In this document: positions 2,253 through 33,792 of the stretch, one piece after another
Position numbering within the stretch: position 1 is the stretch's first letter
Layout of the letters: each line of letters opens with the position of its first letter
IMG/VR virus record: IMGVR_UViG_3300036851_000239
Coordinates: 1-43,700 of that record
Strand: one strand, 5' to 3'
From: a virus
Length of the DNA stretch: 43,700 bases
The notes under the pieces: model-generated
What the model was told of the DNA's origin: nothing
What the model saw: the letters and a program-made list of their open reading frames with translations, nothing else
Database searches by the model: none
Translations under genes and position numbers: made by a program

Positions 2253-3674
2253 TCACGCAGCCGCCCTTCTCACATCAGCGATGAGATCCAACCACCGCCA
2301 CGCTACCGGATCGGTGGCCACGAGCTCAGGCACCATGTTGCGACCGCTTCCGCAGTTGTTCCAGATCACCCGCTGACCGTAGGCCCCTTGCACACCAGCG
2401 GAACGCGTGCGCTGATTCCCCCAAATCTTTCCGCCTGTCTTCGACATCCGCATCAACACGCTCGGGTCGCTGCCCTGCCCGCTGGTCAAGCCAAGGCCAG
2501 GCTCGAGATGCAACTGCAGCCGGTCGACAAAGAGCCGCTTCTGCTCGTCTGCGAGAATCGGCGGGATACGCATCCGCCGCAGGACATCGCCGTCCGCATC
2601 GGTGTAGAGATCGCTCGCCATCCGGTAGGTCGTCCCATTGCCCGCATGCAATACGAGGTGCCGGTTGAACACGTGCGTGTGATACTGCGGCCCCCACGCG
2701 GTAAACATGGTCCCGTCCCACGACGCTCGTTCGTGCCACATGCCTTCCGTGCGGTCGTAGACCCACGTCGCGTTGGCAGATGGGAAGTTCAATACATAGA
2801 AGTCGTGGCCCTGGTCCTGATAGCTCCACCCGACCGCATCATTGATGCGCGAGTACTTACTGATTGCCTGCTCGACTGGTTCGGTGCTGACGACCGTTGG
2901 GTTGTAGCCGAGTGCCTCCACGACCTGCCCATCCCCGTTTTTGTTGTGGGTCAGCCACATAATGGCGGCCCCGCAACGTTTCAACGAGAAGGGCGCGGCA
3001 ATCCCATACGGAATCTGCACGCCCGTGATAGGCGCGAACGGAAACGGGGAGTTGCCGGCGTTGTACCACACGTCGCCTGTGAAGTCGCCAATCAGAAAGA
3101 TGCGCGGATACTTGACCAGCATCGCCTTCCACGGGTCCGAGGCTGTCGACCGCTGGGCGATTTGCGTCCCGTCCCACGTGGTACCGTCCAGGGCATTTGA
3201 AATCTTCAGCGTGGACGTCACGCCGTCGAGCGCAAGGAAGCGCTCGTCCATGTAGCCGCCCATCGTCACGTCTGAGACGACCGACGTCAGCACGTTGGTA
3301 TTCAAATTTAGGATGTAGCCGGTATCGCCGGAGGTAATAAAGAGCTGGTCTCCAGCATCACCGTTTGTGCAGTGCGTTGATGGGTTTCCGTCCACGGCCA
3401 CGGTCCCGCGGCTGGTCGTTGTCCCGTCCGCATTGACTTCGTATTCGGTCGGGCCAATCGTGGCGAAGCACCGTTCCGTCCCGTTGATGGTGTGGCTGAA
3501 GATGCCGCGCCCTGGGCTCTCCGGAGCTGAACGGAACGTCGCTAGGCCGGGTGTTGGATAGAGCTTGTATTCCTGGCCGACACGCTGACTGTAAAGATTT
3601 ACACAGCGTTCCGGTGAGGCCAGCAGGCTCTGGCTTGCTAGCATCGTTGGGCCGGCGAAGCGAGGCCATCTCAT
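2253..3674 (-). CDS. P22 gp10-like tail accessory / packaged DNA stabilisation protein
   Basis: 473 residues, close to the length of P22 gp10. It opens with a typical MLASQSLLASPERCVNLY segment and a short PTPGLATF stretch, followed by repeated beta blades (GDQLFITSGDTGYILN; YPRIFLIGDFTGDVWY) as in the phage stabilisation protein family. In P22, gp10 closes the portal/gp4 channel after packaging and carries the tailspikes. The gene directly follows the gp4-like gene (5-base gap), the same order as in P22. Family assignment is from remembered pattern and context. Confidence 0.8.
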   Translation of the reverse strand: MRWPRFAGPTMLASQSLLASPERCVNLYSQRVGQEYKLYPTPGLATFRSAPESPGRGIFSHTINGTERCFATIGPTEYEVNADGTTTSRGTVAVDGNPSTHCTNGDAGDQLFITSGDTGYILNLNTNVLTSVVSDVTMGGYMDERFLALDGVTSTLKISNALDGTTWDGTQIAQRSTASDPWKAMLVKYPRIFLIGDFTGDVWYNAGNSPFPFAPITGVQIPYGIAAPFSLKRCGAAIMWLTHNKNGDGQVVEALGYNPTVVSTEPVEQAISKYSRINDAVGWSYQDQGHDFYVLNFPSANATWVYDRTEGMWHERASWDGTMFTAWGPQYHTHVFNRHLVLHAGNGTTYRMASDLYTDADGDVLRRMRIPPILADEQKRLFVDRLQLHLEPGLGLTSGQGSDPSVLMRMSKTGGKIWGNQRTRSAGVQGAYGQRVIWNNCGSGRNMVPELVATDPVAWRWLDLIADVRRAAA

Positions 3675-3678
3675 CGCG

Positions 3679-4416
3679 TCAGAACTCTCCGCTCGTGAAG
3701 CGCATCCTTGACAGTGTTCCGACGCGACGTGTCAAGGCGCCGTCGATGACGACATGTGATGGCCTGAAATTGCCTCGCTTGATGTCATCCAGGCTTGTCT
3801 TCGCCAGCATCGCAAGATTCTGCGGTGGCGTGGCCCCTGGATAGTGCGCGGAAAGCTCCATCGCGAGGTTGTAGACAATCGCCCGCCGATAGCCCGGCGG
3901 GAAGGTGTAGACCGTGCTCAAGTCTGCAAACTCCGTGAGCGCGGTCGGCGTGTAGAGCACGAGTTGCGTAGTCCCGACATTTGGGATCGGCAGCGGATAG
4001 ACGCGCCCGAGGCCAGCAGACCAGTTGTGGTCGTACCAGATACCTTGAGCGTAGGTGCTCTGAAACGTCTTCTGCGGCCACGCCTCGTATTCGTCGTCGC
4101 TGAACACCTTAATCGGCGCCTCAACTGGGGTCGCAGCGCCCGTGTCGAGGATCAGGCCCGCATGGTCAATCCAGAGTGGGCGTGCCATAGGGATGTTTGC
4201 GCCTGGGCCAATCGTGTAACTGGCCAACCCACTGGTGAGTGTGAGTGTCGTGCGCGCGAGAAAGTAGATGGTGTGTCGCTGGGTGCCGAGGCCATCCACC
4301 CAGCGGTTGAGCACGTCGAACGCGGTTTCCCCGTCTTCGGAGCTTGGGTCCTCCGTTGGGTCGATGACTCCAAGGAGTTTCAGCGCGGCGGCGGCGAAGT
4401 CGTTGGCGCTCGGCAC
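3679..4416 (-). CDS. P22 gp4-like head-tail adaptor
   Basis: 245 residues; GTG start with a GAGG ribosome site. It begins with a helix (FAAAALKLLGVIDPTEDPSSED) and AFDVLNRWVDGLGTQR, followed by TLTLTSGLASYTIGPGANI, all typical of P22 gp4-type tail accessory factors. That family binds the portal ring and provides the attachment site for gp10. The C-terminal part YRRAIVYNLAMELSAHYPG is the helical portal-facing region. P22 gp4 also has peptidoglycan-hydrolase activity; I cannot judge that here. Directly upstream of the gp10-like gene. Confidence 0.8.
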   Translation of the reverse strand: MPSANDFAAAALKLLGVIDPTEDPSSEDGETAFDVLNRWVDGLGTQRHTIYFLARTTLTLTSGLASYTIGPGANIPMARPLWIDHAGLILDTGAATPVEAPIKVFSDDEYEAWPQKTFQSTYAQGIWYDHNWSAGLGRVYPLPIPNVGTTQLVLYTPTALTEFADLSTVYTFPPGYRRAIVYNLAMELSAHYPGATPPQNLAMLAKTSLDDIKRGNFRPSHVVIDGALTRRVGTLSRMRFTSGEF

Positions 4417-4422
4417 GTCGCC

Positions 4423-4755
4423 TCAGAAGCGCCCGGCCGCTTCTGACCCCTGCATGATGGCCTGCACGGTGCCAGAGGTCGCCGTCGAGAACCGTGCCCG
4501 CACCGCCTCAAAACCAGCGCAGTTGGCGGACCATGCTCCATTCGCCGTCGCGGAACTCGCAGCCGTGGCGCTCGCAGCCGGAACCATGTTGAAGGCCACC
4601 CACGTGTTCCCATCGACCGTCGCTTCGAAGGACACGGTACCAGTCCACGTCCCCAGCAATTGCAGGGCGACACCCGCGAGCCCGCGTGCGCTGATGGAGA
4701 TCAGTTCGTCGGTCGCATCCAGAAACAGCGGGCCTACTCGGGGGGCATTGGTCAT
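4423..4755 (-). CDS. Small putative virion protein
   Basis: 110 residues starting at the ATG at 4753-4755, which overlaps the TGA of the preceding 59-residue gene (ATGA), so translation is probably coupled. The sequence is beta-rich and Ala/Thr-rich (GLAGVALQLLGTWTGTVSFEATVDGNTW), consistent with a small beta-sandwich that decorates or joins virion parts. I do not recognise a family. The more upstream in-frame start would run deep into the 59-residue gene and was rejected. Confidence 0.6.
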   Translation of the reverse strand: MTNAPRVGPLFLDATDELISISARGLAGVALQLLGTWTGTVSFEATVDGNTWVAFNMVPAASATAASSATANGAWSANCAGFEAVRARFSTATSGTVQAIMQGSEAAGRF

Positions 4756-4931
4756 GTTTTGCGCTCCGTCCGTGGCTGCCAACCAGGCTTTGCTGGTGGC
4801 TGCGGTTCTGGTGGCGGAAACTTCGTCGGCGTGTCGACCCACCCGTCGCCGAGTGCGTTGAGCGTCGCCTCGTCCACGAACTTGCGCCCGCTAGGTGCCA
4901 GCGTGGGGTGATACAAGAACGTTGGATGCAT
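4752..4931 (-). CDS. Small phage protein (59 aa), unknown function
   Basis: 59 residues, MHPTFLYHPTLAPSGRKF..., then LGDGWVDTPTKFPPPEP. Proteins of this type, with FLYHP near the start and a GWVDTPAKF-like centre, are common small genes beside head or tail genes of many phages, but the role is unknown. The ATG overlaps the upstream stop (TGATG) and the stop overlaps the next ATG (ATGA), so it sits in a tightly coupled chain. The Pro-rich C-terminus is probably flexible. Confidence 0.65.
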   Translation of the reverse strand: MHPTFLYHPTLAPSGRKFVDEATLNALGDGWVDTPTKFPPPEPQPPAKPGWQPRTERKT

Positions 4932-5414: not shown

Positions 5415-6455
5415 TTACTCCGTTACTGGCAACGGCGCGGCGACAGGCATTGACATAACCGCGCACCATCGCGCTACCGCTGATCCGGTGACGATCGAGA
5501 TTCCAGTAAGCGCCGGGTAGAGGTGGTATTCGTGGATGAACTCACTCGTGGCGAACACGAACCGCGGAGCGACACAGATCGCAACCCAGCCAATCGCCCA
5601 CGTCAGCAGCGGTATCCTTCGCCGCGCCCAGACCGCCAACACGGCCACCGTCGCTGTCAGGAGACACGCTGCGGCCTTCCAATAGGACGAGAGGCCCACG
5701 ATGTCGTGGTCGATGGAGAGGCCAACAGGCCAGGCGTAGAGGGCCAGCAGATGCCAGACCGCGGTGGCTTGCAGGAGGAGAACCATCGGCAGGTCAAACA
5801 CAGGCCCGCCCGCCCCAGGCACCGTCGCGATCACATTCACCAAGCGTGGCCAGGCCACCGTCATCGCCAGCGTCAGGGCGCACAAAAGGGCACCCTGAAT
5901 CCATCTGGCCAACGGGATGTCTTGCCGAAAGACCCGCAGTGACAGGATGACGAGCGGGATCGCGATGAGGCCGATTTCCTTACTCATCGCCGCGGCGACG
6001 ATCGAGATAGCAGCGACCCCTGCGCGCCAGAGCCCAGGACGATCCGCCCATCCAAGCGCGGCCCAGACCGCCAGGAGCGTCCACAGCGCGACCAGGAGAT
6101 CGCCTCGGGCGCTCACGTAGCTGACGGCTTCGCTGTTTATGGGGTGCAGGAGAAAGACGGCTGCCGCGATGAGCGCCGCTGTCGGGGCGACGATCTCGCC
6201 CGCGACGGCATACACCAGCAGACCTGTCGTGAGATGCAGCCCGATGTTCGCGGCATGTTGCCGCCCAGCGTCTAGCCCGATCGCGTCCACGGTCCACTGC
6301 GAGAGGCCGCGGCCTGGTAGCGTCCACGCTGCCGGCGCCTCAAGCGCGTGGTCGTCTTCCCATACAAAGGACGCCCCGAGCGCCGGCCGGTAGAGCAGGA
6401 CCGTCAGGGCGCAGAGGCCGACGAGGAGGAGTCTGCGGATGTGCGCGTGATCCAT
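5415..6455 (-). CDS. GT-C membrane glycosyltransferase domain, TMTC/TPR-type (N-terminal part as separate gene)
   Basis: 346 residues with about nine hydrophobic segments. Motifs fit GT-C fold enzymes of the TMTC / bacterial TPR-glycosyltransferase type: a first loop FVWEDD (Asp34, Asp35, the expected acidic catalytic pair), HPINSEAVSY at 104-113 followed by SARGD at 115-119, SKEIGL at 158-163, and HEYHLYPAL near the end. Such enzymes use lipid-linked sugars and act on the periplasmic side. The family normally continues after this point into one last membrane helix and TPR repeats; here the ORF stops, and that part is encoded by the upstream gene 6404-6838. The start overlaps that gene by 52 bases. 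Role could be glycosylation of an exported protein or of the host surface. Confidence 0.75.
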   Translation of the reverse strand: MDHAHIRRLLLVGLCALTVLLYRPALGASFVWEDDHALEAPAAWTLPGRGLSQWTVDAIGLDAGRQHAANIGLHLTTGLLVYAVAGEIVAPTAALIAAAVFLLHPINSEAVSYVSARGDLLVALWTLLAVWAALGWADRPGLWRAGVAAISIVAAAMSKEIGLIAIPLVILSLRVFRQDIPLARWIQGALLCALTLAMTVAWPRLVNVIATVPGAGGPVFDLPMVLLLQATAVWHLLALYAWPVGLSIDHDIVGLSSYWKAAACLLTATVAVLAVWARRRIPLLTWAIGWVAICVAPRFVFATSEFIHEYHLYPALTGISIVTGSAVARWCAVMSMPVAAPLPVTE

Positions 6456-6838
6456 GTCAGCACTCGATGCGGGGTCTTGAACTGTGGTGCTCGCGCGATC
6501 ACTGTCTCGATGCGGAATCGTGCGTCGATCCAGTCCTTCCGATTCGCGGCGTTGATGGCCAGATTCGTTTCCGCGATGGCCCAGGCTAGGAGCCGTTCGT
6601 CAGGTGCGCGGCCGAGGCGCTGCGTGAGCTCGCTCGCATACCGCCACGCGTCGGCCGCCTTGCCGTATTGCCCGCGTCGCTGATACTGCTGCCCGAGATT
6701 GATCCACGGACGCGGCTTCTCTGGGCTATGCGCGACCGCCGTCGCCCAGAGACGCCGTTCATCCTGCCAGTCTGTCGCGCGGCTGTACGTGACGAGGGCG
6801 AGCCCCAGCAGCCACGCCCCAGTCACGCACCTACGCAT
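6404..6838 (-). CDS. TPR module of a TMTC-type glycosyltransferase (C-terminal part as separate, upstream gene)
   Basis: 144 residues; ATG at 6836-6838 overlaps the upstream TGA (TGATG). One N-terminal hydrophobic helix (VTGAWLLGLALVTYSR) is followed by ATDWQDERRLWATAV and then SPEKPRPWINLGQQYQRRGQ, a classic TPR. This junction (last membrane helix, R-x-x-W-x-D-E-x-x-LW, TPR) is what I expect at the C-terminus of TPR-containing GT-C glycosyltransferases. Here it is a separate gene translated before the catalytic part, so the two halves are split and in swapped order. The protein is probably anchored with TPRs in the periplasm and pairs with the 5415-6455 product. Confidence 0.75.
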   Translation of the reverse strand: MRRCVTGAWLLGLALVTYSRATDWQDERRLWATAVAHSPEKPRPWINLGQQYQRRGQYGKAADAWRYASELTQRLGRAPDERLLAWAIAETNLAINAANRKDWIDARFRIETVIARAPQFKTPHRVLTWITRTSADSSSSASAP

Positions 6839-7320
6839 CAAAAAGTGACCGGCCGAGAGTCGTACGTGACCGTCGCGGCACTTGTGCCGTTCCACGTGCT
6901 CGTCTCCGACCGACACGTCCAGAAGAACCCGCCCCGCACGTTGATCCACGGCATGAACGCGGCATCCCCAGACCCACGCGTGCAGTCCGCGCCGTAATCG
7001 GGATCGTTGGTGTGAAAATGATCCGATGCCCCAACGTAGACCCGGTCCGTGTTGTCATGCGCGCGCGCCCTCGTCCCGTTCTGGCCACGGCGTACGCTGA
7101 TGGCAGTACCGCTCACGGCAGTCACCAACGCTTGTTCTGAGTCAACCCACACGTAATCGCCCACGTCGAACCCGGTGGCGCTGGTCACGGAGAAAACCGT
7201 CGCCGTCTCTGAGGCATTGGCCGCCAGAGTCGTGGTGTTCATCAGCGTCTGAGCCTGAGCGGCTGAGACGCCGACGAGGAGCAGGAGTGCAATCAGTGCC
7301 GCGCGTCGTATGGTGTGCAT
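6838..7320 (-). CDS. Exported protein coupled to the glycosyltransferase genes
   Basis: 160 residues. The start is chosen at the second of two adjacent ATGs, 5 bases after GGAGG. Residues 1 to about 24 form a clear signal peptide (two Arg, ALIALLLLVGVSAA core, AQAQ cleavage region). The mature part is beta-rich with SVTSATGFDVGDYVWV and RRGQNGTRARAH motifs, the latter reminiscent of modules in phage fibre-like proteins, plus two Cys that could form a disulfide. Its stop overlaps the start of the TPR gene, which makes it a candidate substrate or partner of the glycosyltransferase. Mature function unknown. Confidence 0.7.
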   Translation of the reverse strand: MHTIRRAALIALLLLVGVSAAQAQTLMNTTTLAANASETATVFSVTSATGFDVGDYVWVDSEQALVTAVSGTAISVRRGQNGTRARAHDNTDRVYVGASDHFHTNDPDYGADCTRGSGDAAFMPWINVRGGFFWTCRSETSTWNGTSAATVTYDSRPVTF

Positions 7321-7331
7321 CATGTCCTCCC

Positions 7332-8552
7332 TTACGCCGCCAACACGGCAACGATGTGCTCGGTTCGCTGAGCCAGCACACCGAAGACAATGTCGAAACG
7401 CGACTTCCACTGGTCGGTGTCACCGTCCCACCATTCGCAGTAGCGCATCCCGACCCCGCTCAGGGAGTCGTACTTCATCGAGGCCTGATTGACGCCGTCC
7501 GGCTTCTCGAGCGGCACGATCGCGAGCGCGACCGCTTCCTTGTGCCAGAGCAGTCCAATCGTGGCCAGGGCCGAGGCTGCGCCGCTGAAGGTCAGCGCCG
7601 CGTTATCCGCCGGCAGCGCCGAGACGTTCTGGAACGCTCCGGTGGACCGAATCGTCGGGCTGATGTTGATCGTCAGCGCGCCCGCCGCGTTCGTGCCCGC
7701 TGCCGTGACAACAAACGGCTGCAGGAAGGGATAGGTCGCTTTCGTGATCGGGTTGACCGCGAAGACATCCGCGATGGTGAACCTGTCACCCTCTGCGACG
7801 GCTCCTGACCCCGTCCAGCCGTCCGTGACCAGCGTGGTCGCGCCGTCGGCCGTGGCTCCATTGACCAGAATCGTCCCGGCCCGCGCTCCATTGGTGTGGC
7901 GGTACAGGTTTTGGTCCATGTGCCAGTTCATGCCGTTCTGGTACGTGCCGTCCAAATCGGCATCCGTGAACATCGCCCCGATCTTGCCGCTCGGATTGAA
8001 CTGAGCCGGCGTGATCGCCTGGATGATGTCGCCTTCCATCTCCGGGTTGATGTTCAGGTGTCGCTGGCCTTTGCCTCTCGGCGCAGTCATGTCGCTGAGC
8101 CGCGCGCCTGCGTCGTAGTAGGTCGCCGTCGAGGACGGGGTTGTGCCGTACGTCCCGACGTTGTGGTAGGTCCGCAGCGCCACGTCCCGCAACACAATGC
8201 GGTCGACTTCATTCGCCAACCGAATCGCGGCCGGCTTCAAGCACTGTTCGGTGAGGGAGTTCAGATCGAGCTTGCGCTCCATCGACGACATCTCGAAGTC
8301 GATGCCGATCTGATAGTTGAGGGTCAGGGTGTCGAACTGCTCGTTCACGTTCTGGCCGGTCCAGCTCTGGCCCGTCCTGACGGTGAACTGCGCGGGTTTG
8401 CGAATCCGAATCGCGTCGCCGCGCTTCGCGCCCGCCTGTCCGAACAAGGGTTCGACCTTGCGGCTGCAGGTGCGCAACGCCACGCAGTTGGCCTCGAAGG
8501 GGTCGAGGGCCGCGAGCGTGACGTGGTCAATCGTGAAACCGTTGAATGCCAT
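7332..8552 (-). CDS. Major capsid (coat) protein, P22 coat-like
   Basis: 406 residues, close to P22 gp5 in length. N-terminal region IRKPAQFTVRTGQ, then FDTLTLNYQIGIDFEMSSMERKLDLN, with an ending of YCEWWDGDTDQWKSRFDI-type, matches the pattern of P22-like coat proteins (HK97 fold). It follows the scaffold gene directly, and the order portal, scaffold, coat is that of P22. The TAA/TGA region is followed within 12 bases by the exported-protein gene. Forms the procapsid shell with the scaffold. Confidence 0.85.
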   Translation of the reverse strand: MAFNGFTIDHVTLAALDPFEANCVALRTCSRKVEPLFGQAGAKRGDAIRIRKPAQFTVRTGQSWTGQNVNEQFDTLTLNYQIGIDFEMSSMERKLDLNSLTEQCLKPAAIRLANEVDRIVLRDVALRTYHNVGTYGTTPSSTATYYDAGARLSDMTAPRGKGQRHLNINPEMEGDIIQAITPAQFNPSGKIGAMFTDADLDGTYQNGMNWHMDQNLYRHTNGARAGTILVNGATADGATTLVTDGWTGSGAVAEGDRFTIADVFAVNPITKATYPFLQPFVVTAAGTNAAGALTINISPTIRSTGAFQNVSALPADNAALTFSGAASALATIGLLWHKEAVALAIVPLEKPDGVNQASMKYDSLSGVGMRYCEWWDGDTDQWKSRFDIVFGVLAQRTEHIVAVLAA

Positions 8553-30056: not shown

Positions 30057-31112
30057 ATGAGAAGCGCCCGCACCAGAATCGCGACGAACGTCTTTCGGGA
30101 CGCCTCGGGCATCTCGGCCATCGTCCGCGTTCGAGGACACAAGCCCAAGGAGCTGCGGTTCCTGCCCAACACGGCGCTGAAGGACATCCGGAAGGACATG
30201 GAGCGCTGGGCGGCCCGGATGCACACCGCGAAGCCGACGCCCAGCCGCGGCACGCTGGCGGCCGACGCCGTCACCTACGAGCGGCTCACTCGGCATCTAG
30301 TAAGCTGGCGCGAACGGCGCTCAGAGGTGCGTGCCCTGGTGCGCGCGCTGGGCGATACGCGACGATCGCAGATCCTGAAGGCCGATGTGCTCGAGATGCG
30401 CACGGCATGGCTCCAGGCCGGCGTGGCGCCCAAGACGTGCAACAACCGGATCGGGACGCTGCGGAACATCTTCCGCGTGTTGGACGGGAAAAGGGTCGAC
30501 ATACCCTGCGACGAGATCGAGGATCTGCCGATACACAGGACGCCGATCCAGCGCGTGTCCGTTGAGACGATTCTGGCGGTTGACGCGAAGCTCCAAGAGC
30601 ACGAGCGCAAGGGCTGGATACGCAACGCGAAGACGCGAGCCCGCTACCGCGTGATGGTCAGCACGGGTCGGCGGCCGTCCGAAATCGCACGCACCGAACC
30701 GGATGACGTAGACCTGTCGAATCGGATTTGGGTGCCACGCGACGGCAAGGGAGGCTTTACGCCTGGCCTGTACTTGAACGACGACCAATGGACCGCGTGG
30801 TTCCTCTTTGCCGAGGCGAAGGCATGGGGCAAGTTCAACGAGAGCGCGTTCGTGCGCACGTTGAGGACCGCCGGCTGGCCGGAAGGCGTGCGGCCCTACC
30901 AGGCGCGGCACACGCTCGGGATCACGCTCTCAGAGGCGGGAATCGACCTGGACGACGTTGGCGCGGCCCTCGGACACAAGCGCCGGGAGACGACCCGCAA
31001 GCACTATGTACCCGTGCTCGGCAGCCGCATGCAGGCCCTCAGCGAGAGCCTGTCCGGACGGTTCAATGGCTGGAACCGCGTGGAACCACAACGTGGAACA
31101 GACGACAAATGA
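30057..31112 (+). CDS. int: Tyrosine recombinase (phage integrase)
   Basis: 351 residues. The first ~150 residues are the arm- and core-binding region. The catalytic half shows STGRRPSEIARTEPDDV (Arg I), WVPRDGKGGFTPGLYLN (Lys region), PYQARHTLGITLSEAGIDLD (Arg II; the usual first His of HxxR is Tyr here), ALGHKRRETTRKHYVPV (His/Trp position and the Tyr nucleophile). It starts 21 bases after the repressor stop, with AGAAGG upstream, and attP lies just downstream. Integrates the phage at the host attB. Confidence 0.92.
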   Translation: MRSARTRIATNVFRDASGISAIVRVRGHKPKELRFLPNTALKDIRKDMERWAARMHTAKPTPSRGTLAADAVTYERLTRHLVSWRERRSEVRALVRALGDTRRSQILKADVLEMRTAWLQAGVAPKTCNNRIGTLRNIFRVLDGKRVDIPCDEIEDLPIHRTPIQRVSVETILAVDAKLQEHERKGWIRNAKTRARYRVMVSTGRRPSEIARTEPDDVDLSNRIWVPRDGKGGFTPGLYLNDDQWTAWFLFAEAKAWGKFNESAFVRTLRTAGWPEGVRPYQARHTLGITLSEAGIDLDDVGAALGHKRRETTRKHYVPVLGSRMQALSESLSGRFNGWNRVEPQRGTDDK

Positions 31113-32590: not shown

Positions 32591-33022
32591 TCACTGAACC
32601 ACGACGCGTGCCGTGGCTCGGCCGCAGACCTTTTTCAGATCGTCATCGGCGTAGACGGTCGCCGTGATCACGTAGGTGCCTCCGTGCAAATCGATGAACT
32701 TCCGGTCCTGCCGGATGCGTTCGTCTGCTCCGTCGAGTTGAATCACGGATCGCGGGACGGGGCCGTCCTGCTTCTCCGGCTCGCGGAGCATCTCGGGCGT
32801 GTCGTCCGCGAACATGTCCATCGTCCGATCCGGCTCGGCGTACTCGACGTCGAATGCGAGCTGCCGATGCGCCTTGTCAGGGGTCACGCGCGCCTCCGCG
32901 CAGAGCGTGACTGGGCCGAACGCCACAGTGACAGTTCGGGCGTAACAATTTGTGATTCTGACTTTGACGCATTGGTCAAGCGCCGCAGCATGGGCCTGGA
33001 CGGCGAGCGCAAGGCAGATCAC
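32591..33022 (-). CDS. Exported protein (about 143 aa), unknown function
   Basis: GTG start gives ICLALAVQAHAAALDQC, a signal-peptide-like segment but without a positive residue. A CTG at 33034 in frame, overlapping the preceding TGA, would add TLK and give a normal signal peptide with a GGGGGTC site upstream. The mature part is beta-rich (KVRITNCYARTVTVAFGPVT; YVITATVYADDDLKK) with several Cys. It is the last gene of the leftward unit. Confidence 0.6.
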   Translation of the reverse strand: MICLALAVQAHAAALDQCVKVRITNCYARTVTVAFGPVTLCAEARVTPDKAHRQLAFDVEYAEPDRTMDMFADDTPEMLREPEKQDGPVPRSVIQLDGADERIRQDRKFIDLHGGTYVITATVYADDDLKKVCGRATARVVVQ

Positions 33023-33030
33023 CTTGAGGG

Positions 33031-33792
33031 TCAGTTCCCGACCCCCAATGTAAGCAGGCGCTTGACGCCTCCGCCACCTCCCCCTCCGCCAGCAACCTCA
33101 GATATGACAGTACAGGCTAAGGCCTCATCATCCGCCACCTGCGTGGCGCCACAGGTGTACGCAGTGTCGGTCAAGTTGACGGTGCGACAGTGGAGGGAGG
33201 AAAAGTTTCCGTGGTCGGCTGAGGCGACAAGCGTCGCGGTCTCCTGCGCACAGGTGCCGGGGGAGCCACCTCCGTAGTAATTCGCCATAAGCGCCACGCG
33301 CTGTGCAGACGCGAGTGTCCCAGTCGTGCACTGTGGGTTCGCTTCGTTGGTGTTCGCCGGATTCGTGCAGGACCCTCCAGTCTCGATCTCCGTATTCGCG
33401 TCAGCTTGCACGGTGACACACGAGAACTGAATATCATCTGCCGTTGCCGAGTCGAGGTCGATAGAGACTGTATTGCTTGCCTTTGCGGTCAGATCTCCAG
33501 CAGCCCACGTCTCTGCGATGCCTTGCTCCCCTGCCGTGTCGACTCGTCGAATCTGGAATGTGAGCGCGACTCCACCATACGACATCGATAAGATATGAGA
33601 TCCCGACGTCACGCCGTGCGACGCAGCACAGATGATTCCATCAGGGCTGACCGATGTATGGGTAAAGGTATACGGATCTTGCGTGCCAGTCCGCAGGCTT
33701 CCCGTTGCTGCGTCGAAGGTGACGACAGCCCAGGCGGGAGGTGCCGTGAACAGGATGAAGAGTAGAACAGAAAGAGCAGTTCGACGCATCAT
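33031..33792 (-). CDS. Exported Cys-rich protein with poly-Gly region (253 aa)
   Basis: MMRRTALSVLLFILFTAPPA is a signal peptide. The mature part is beta-rich with eight or more Cys (SCTNPANTNEANPQC; SPGTC; YTCGAT; LACTV), probably forming disulfides outside the cytoplasm. A run of eight Gly precedes the basic end VKRLLTLGVGN. I recognise no family. It overlaps the upstream gene by 4 bases. A virion role without export is hard to reconcile with the signal peptide. Confidence 0.65.
   Translation of the reverse strand: MMRRTALSVLLFILFTAPPAWAVVTFDAATGSLRTGTQDPYTFTHTSVSPDGIICAASHGVTSGSHILSMSYGGVALTFQIRRVDTAGEQGIAETWAAGDLTAKASNTVSIDLDSATADDIQFSCVTVQADANTEIETGGSCTNPANTNEANPQCTTGTLASAQRVALMANYYGGGSPGTCAQETATLVASADHGNFSSLHCRTVNLTDTAYTCGATQVADDEALACTVISEVAGGGGGGGGVKRLLTLGVGN

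Follow-up and report, generated by a model that had tools for sequence, protein, structure and literature searches.

The head operon of the phage analysed here contains three consecutive genes (the trio), encoding an exported protein, a TPR protein and a GT-C membrane protein. By sequence, the latter two correspond together to one bacterial/TMTC-type TPR-GT-C enzyme, divided between two genes that stand in the reverse of the normal order. The interpretation we favour, with a probability of roughly 0.55, is that the trio constitutes a late two-subunit periplasmic glycosyltransferase unit of the TMTC type, which would use a lipid-linked sugar of the host and whose most likely target would be the exported protein.

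Genomic setting of the trio

The window, i.e. the whole stretch of DNA analysed, comprises positions 1-43,700 (43.7 kb) of the IMG/VR virus contig IMGVR_UViG_3300036851_000239 and has a GC content of 63%. Its head-tail genes follow one another on the minus strand in the order terminase, portal, scaffold-like protein, P22-type capsid, the trio, small genes, SU10-adaptor-like protein and Hc3 (table 1), and the trio is transcribed in the order exported protein, TPR half, GT-C half. The phage is probably temperate, as suggested by its integrase gene and the neighbouring gene for an HTH regulator.

Table 1. Coordinates of the trio and of other genes of the window considered in the text.
Feature	Position	Strand	Remarks
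Hc3	2253-3674	-	downstream of the SU10-adaptor-like gene
Tail adaptor, SU10-adaptor-like	3679-4416	-	PF24175; downstream of the trio
GT-C half, 346 aa	5415-6455	-	10 predicted transmembrane helices
TPR half, 144 aa	6404-6838	-	N-terminal hydrophobic helix and TPR
Exported protein, 160 aa	6838-7320	-	Sec signal peptide and small beta-barrel domain
Major capsid protein, P22 coat type	7332-8552	-	PF11651 (8e-36); phrog_283 (5e-66)
Tyrosine integrase	30057-31112		HTH regulator adjoining

The motifs quoted in the original prediction, the three genes, their order and their overlaps are all present in the window. The TGA of the exported gene overlaps the ATG of the TPR half in the sequence TGATG, bearing out the predicted coupling to an exported protein, and in the cases checked across lineages the spacing of these two genes ranges from a gap of 32 nt to an overlap of 1 nt. 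The stop of the TPR half overlaps the start of the GT-C half by 52 nt in the window (6404-6455, minus strand) and by 4-52 nt in every lineage checked.

The GT-C half is a TMTC-type membrane protein

The GT-C half of the window carries the motifs FVWEDD, HPINSEAVSYVSARGDLL, SKE and HEYHLYPAL, and the following active-site set: the acidic pair E33-D34 in EL1, R117xD119, K159-E160, D249 and E309xxxY313. The pair E33-D34 is invariant in all 17 phage contigs that possess the trio (see below), D34 is kept in at least 90% of the 51 phage and bacterial rows of our alignment, and R117, D119, K159, E160, D249, E309 and Y313 are invariant wherever a phage contig covers them. An AlphaFold2 model built from the 51-row alignment reached a pLDDT of 89.9 and a pTM of 0.90. 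When it was compared with the PDB by Foldseek, the leading matches were AglB, OST/STT3, PIG-U, ArnT, PMT, PglB, ALG3 and Emb, with probabilities mostly of 1.00 and a best E-value of only 3e-3. On the strength of this model, the GT-C half can be confidently assigned to the GT-C fold, and it displays the features of that superfamily, namely about 7-13 helices with a catalytic extracytoplasmic loop after TM1 and an acidic residue in EL1. The count of 10 helices treats the helix at residues 222-241 as a membrane-parallel one preceding the EL4 aspartate, as described for TMTCs.

For a closer placement we used as the comparison set the O-mannosyltransferases TMTC1-4 (GT-C/PMT clan; CAZy GT105) together with full-length prokaryotic TPR-GT-C homologues (PMC7801869). 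TMTCs possess eleven TMs and a C-terminal TPR region on the lumenal side (PMC7801869). The phage protein shares with this set the GT-C fold, the acidic EL1 pair, RxD in EL2, KE in EL3, D in EL4 and the ExxxY motif of EL5, located before the penultimate helix, and in both cases the last helix is followed by W-x-D and TPR, which in the phage are encoded by the other gene. It differs from TMTCs in that the phage GT-C halves have H or Y in place of the ERxxY arginine and that TMTC_DUF1736 is not matched; O-mannosyl transfer to a protein, a trait of the class, is no more than a possible activity of the phage enzyme. A Pfam search with the GT-C half of the window gave no matches, including to TMTC_DUF1736 and PMT_2, and across the 51 rows PMT_2 was detected in 11 and TMTC_DUF1736 in one. 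Taken as a whole, the sequence comparison supports the GT-C half as a TMTC-type protein that lacks the usual last helix and TPRs.

The TPR half corresponds to the missing end of the enzyme, in swapped order

The TPR half begins with one hydrophobic stretch, which is followed by WQDERRLW (a W-x-D-x-x-x-LW junction) and then by TPR (Pfam TPR_2, 1.6e-6). The hydrophobic segment is short in the window (about 15 residues, below the 19-residue hydropathy threshold) and clear in L003, L080, L091 and L007. An HMM of the phage TPR halves aligns to bacterial full-length proteins from their last helix on, directly after the GT-C part, in agreement with the proposal that the last helix and TPRs missing from the GT-C half are supplied by the preceding gene and that the 6404-6838 protein is a TPR continuation of this family. 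The N-terminal helix of the TPR half is thus the equivalent of TM11, and in sequence the two halves together correspond to one TPR-GT-C enzyme, with only one or two TPRs in the phage form.

Bacterial relatives, encoded at 70 loci, have a different arrangement. When searched with profiles of the phage halves, all 77 bacterial frames holding both parts proved to be one chain running from GT-C through the last helix to TPR, and none was split or reversed, whereas the two-gene order TPR-then-GT-C was found in 17 of 17 phage contigs. In most bacterial frames the TPR-half match begins within the first 17 positions, i.e. the hydrophobic helix, and it usually lies a few to about 40 residues past the GT-C match; frames without a TPR match are cut by contig ends or have a diverged or other C-terminal region. 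The break maps to the cytoplasmic loop that links TM10 to TM11, both ends of the GT-C half being cytoplasmic by homology, and this would allow the two halves to insert separately with their N-termini inside. A fusion of TPR into GT-C by a frameshift is unlikely, because the TPRs end in the periplasm, whereas TM1 has to begin on the cytoplasmic side.

As for the origin of the swap, tandem duplication followed by loss of both ends, as the original prediction proposed, is possible, because tandem arrays do exist in bacteria: a Gemmatimonadetes contig (L009:1-12648) contains a run of six full-length TPR-GT-C genes whose ends overlap. Shorter runs occur in L046, L048 and L021. Deleting both ends of a tandem full-length run would leave TPR followed by GT-C.

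The trio is a conserved but optional insert behind the capsid gene

Relatives of the trio were sought with the DNA pattern HPxxxEAVxYxxxRxD and by alignment searches. Other phages with the same split order, whose existence the original prediction had left to be checked, were indeed recovered: the trio occurs in the same order, directly behind the capsid gene, in 17 virus contigs including the window, which represent eight lineages at a GT-C identity cut-off of 70%. The GT-C gene is whole in 13 of them and cut by the contig end in L004, L123, L127 and L124. We found no full-length phage version and no frameshift error; the split is real and conserved across the eight lineages. The exported gene stands directly upstream of every TPR/GT-C pair, and the enzyme was never seen without it. 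The capsid gene is always the direct upstream neighbour of the trio. Capsid proteins belong to widely differing groups: four others are 55-60% identical to that of the window, while among those of L007, L004 and L086 the figure is only about 27%. In a tree with 44 bacterial rows, seven phage GT-C halves form one clade with support of 100/99, which is most simply explained by a single old acquisition.

Estimates of dN/dS in the L091 group are about 0.08-0.12 (GT-C half), 0.09-0.13 (exported protein) and 0.24-0.36 (TPR half), and those between L003 and L080 are 0.24-0.30 across all three genes, the gene overlaps slightly affecting the ends of TPR and GT-C. These ratios indicate that the genes of the trio are under purifying selection.

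The trio is an optional insert. L133 and L134 lack it altogether: their capsid shares 54% identity with that of the window, and their adaptor gene comes directly after the capsid gene. L135, and probably L086, possess the exported protein without TPR or GT-C in the available sequence. The natural empty site in these close relatives can be located at L133:2605-2744 and L134:4060-4199. Two loci, L084 and L085, were set aside, their exported-protein matches being at the domain level only.

Beyond these contigs, the GT-C half had no match in INPHARED and no convincing family in PHROGs, and searches with single proteins returned nothing from either viral contigs or INPHARED. A capsid search of about 1,500 genomes (Acidobacteriota, Gemmatimonadota, Myxococcota, Nitrospirota and the phylum of L077) returned distant capsids only, without the trio. 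The post-capsid genes of eleven cultured or metagenomic P22-type phages were also considered and rejected as relatives of the exported protein, the best of them, a 68-aa protein with E 0.006, being regarded as a chance match.

The exported protein resembles a virion-type module

The exported protein starts with a Sec signal peptide, with cleavage predicted near AQA-Q in the window and at AxA-Q or similar in relatives. In an eight-row alignment, the A-Q at the end of the signal peptide and both cysteines (C113 and C136) are invariant. The mature protein is Thr-rich. Its structural model is of moderate quality (pLDDT 73). In fold searches the barrel region matched a phage tail tube, a tailspike and a Vibrio phage VP1 capsid chain in the PDB, as well as tail-fibre proteins in BFVD, and the protein matched the tail-fibre family phrog_9851 in PHROGs (8e-7). 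L100, which belongs to an Acidobacteriota genome, encodes behind its capsid gene a protein with the same domain and without a signal peptide. Owing to these matches and to the capsid-adjacent homologue, the exported protein looks like a virion-type module routed through Sec. It has the fold of phage virion beta-barrel domains (tailspike regions, tail fibres, the VP1 capsid chain), to which it adds the signal peptide and the invariant cysteine pair.

Several further observations concern this class of proteins. The capsid protein of the window contains an inserted domain (residues 216-304) that scores against the distal tail protein family phrog_1302 (2e-7) and possibly shares its barrel type with the exported protein. 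In L135 (7230-9066), two consecutive signal-peptide genes, and possibly a third (ORF from 8874), lie behind the capsid gene; the second resembles the window protein at 4423-4842, which itself has no signal peptide. A further protein of the window, encoded in the second structural region (33031-33792, minus strand), likewise has a clear signal peptide (MMRRTALSVLLFILFTAPPAWA), and the product of the neighbouring gene at 32591-33022 may also be exported. Sec signals on virion-type proteins may be more widespread among these phages.

Proposed function

If the trio is a two-subunit glycosyltransferase, the overlapping TPR and GT-C genes would be translated in step, and the two halves, after separate insertion, would come together as a single 11-helix enzyme whose TPRs lie in the periplasm. 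GT-C enzymes use lipid-linked sugar donors and act at the outer face of the membrane (PMC11127046). In the phage the sugar would come from a host undecaprenyl-linked donor, an assumption that we make because neither a donor synthase nor a flippase was detected in the phage record, which may be incomplete. The TPRs would present the protein to which the sugar is then attached. Most likely this is the beta-barrel protein that the gene directly upstream encodes and that Sec exports; once glycosylated, it would act outside the cytoplasm, either on the cell surface or, at lysis, attached to virions. A more specific version, that the exported virion-type protein is O-glycosylated in the periplasm and then joins virions or coats the dying cell at lysis, seems to us rather unlikely.

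The exported protein is the first candidate substrate by analogy with bacterial enzymes encoded beside secreted pilins. Prepilin genes occur near TPR-GT-C in 18 of the 70 bacterial loci; all share the strand of the TPR-GT-C gene, and almost all precede it. In about eleven loci the TPR-GT-C gene directly follows a type IV pilin gene (loci of this kind include L015, L017, L024, L028, L029, L060, L068, L070 and L077). The location of full-length TPR-GT-C genes directly downstream of type IV pilin genes suggests that Nitrospirota and Geobacter-type bacteria possess a family of pilin glycosyltransferases, and that the bacterial enzymes act on secreted proteins whose genes adjoin their own. TfpO/TfpW pilin glycosyltransferases, too, are membrane enzymes encoded next to the secreted protein they modify, a likeness of gene arrangement; the phage unit differs from them in having no pilin gene and a signal-peptide beta-barrel protein as its neighbour, although many of its bacterial relatives do adjoin pilin genes. 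The asymmetry within phages, where the enzyme occurs only with the exported gene and the exported gene also alone, fits the pattern expected for a modifier and its substrate, and it implies that the exported protein works unglycosylated in some phages. Against the two-subunit reading stands the shortness of the TPR-half helix in the window.

The same enzyme might instead act on the host surface (a type IV pilin, O-antigen or other glycan), changing the receptor late or in the lysogen such that virions do not re-adsorb and related phages are excluded, with the exported protein being a separate exclusion or surface protein. The many bacterial TPR-GT-C genes directly behind pilA-like genes and the probably temperate lifestyle are compatible with this, as are the blocking of pilus phages by pilin glycosylation (PMC11841053) and the use of GT-C enzymes in three-component seroconversion by phage gtr (PMC11127046). 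We nevertheless regard such a target as possible but doubtful, because the genes are late, being part of the head operon and outside a lysogenic conversion position, no gtrA/gtrB is found in the record, and the enzyme never occurs without the exported gene; the late position and the strict linkage favour the exported protein. The gtr systems (GtrA, GtrB and a type-specific GT-C), by which phages alter the O-antigen, do resemble the trio as phage-encoded periplasmic GT-C enzymes needing a lipid-linked sugar. However, the trio lies in a late head operon and includes a TPR subunit and an exported partner, and a gtr-type operon was rejected given that no GtrA/GtrB adjoins the GT-C gene; matches to PF04138 (GtrA) and PF00535 (GT2/GtrB) were lacking anywhere in the record, which may be incomplete.

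It is also conceivable, but quite improbable, that the halves are independent, with the TPR protein serving the exported protein as an anchored periplasmic scaffold and the GT-C half being complete alone. The GT-C half by itself does model with high confidence as a compact GT-C fold, and other GT-C families are not known to have TPRs; yet the TPR half aligns to the bacterial chain from the last helix on, straight after GT-C, and the pair is always together and overlapping. That the trio is a relic or an artefact (a decayed bacterial gene, a frameshift or a misassembly) is scarcely credible: apart from the unusual order nothing speaks for it, and it is contradicted by the recurrence of that order in 17 contigs, by purifying selection and by the invariant active site. 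Frameshift or assembly error in particular is ruled out by the conservation of the order in eight lineages.

Significance

The GT-C fold and TPR-GT-C enzymes are already known; what is new is a split, swapped and phage-borne form with an exported partner, and our literature search found no paper linking phage, glycosyltransferase, tetratricopeptide and TMTC. A naturally split TPR-GT-C provides a test of the role of the TPRs, as each half can be removed separately. Being small and always linked, the exported protein is a ready candidate substrate for the bacterial TPR-GT-C enzymes, an entire class that is uncharacterised. If this virion-like protein is glycosylated, phages would have protein glycosylation outside the cytoplasm.
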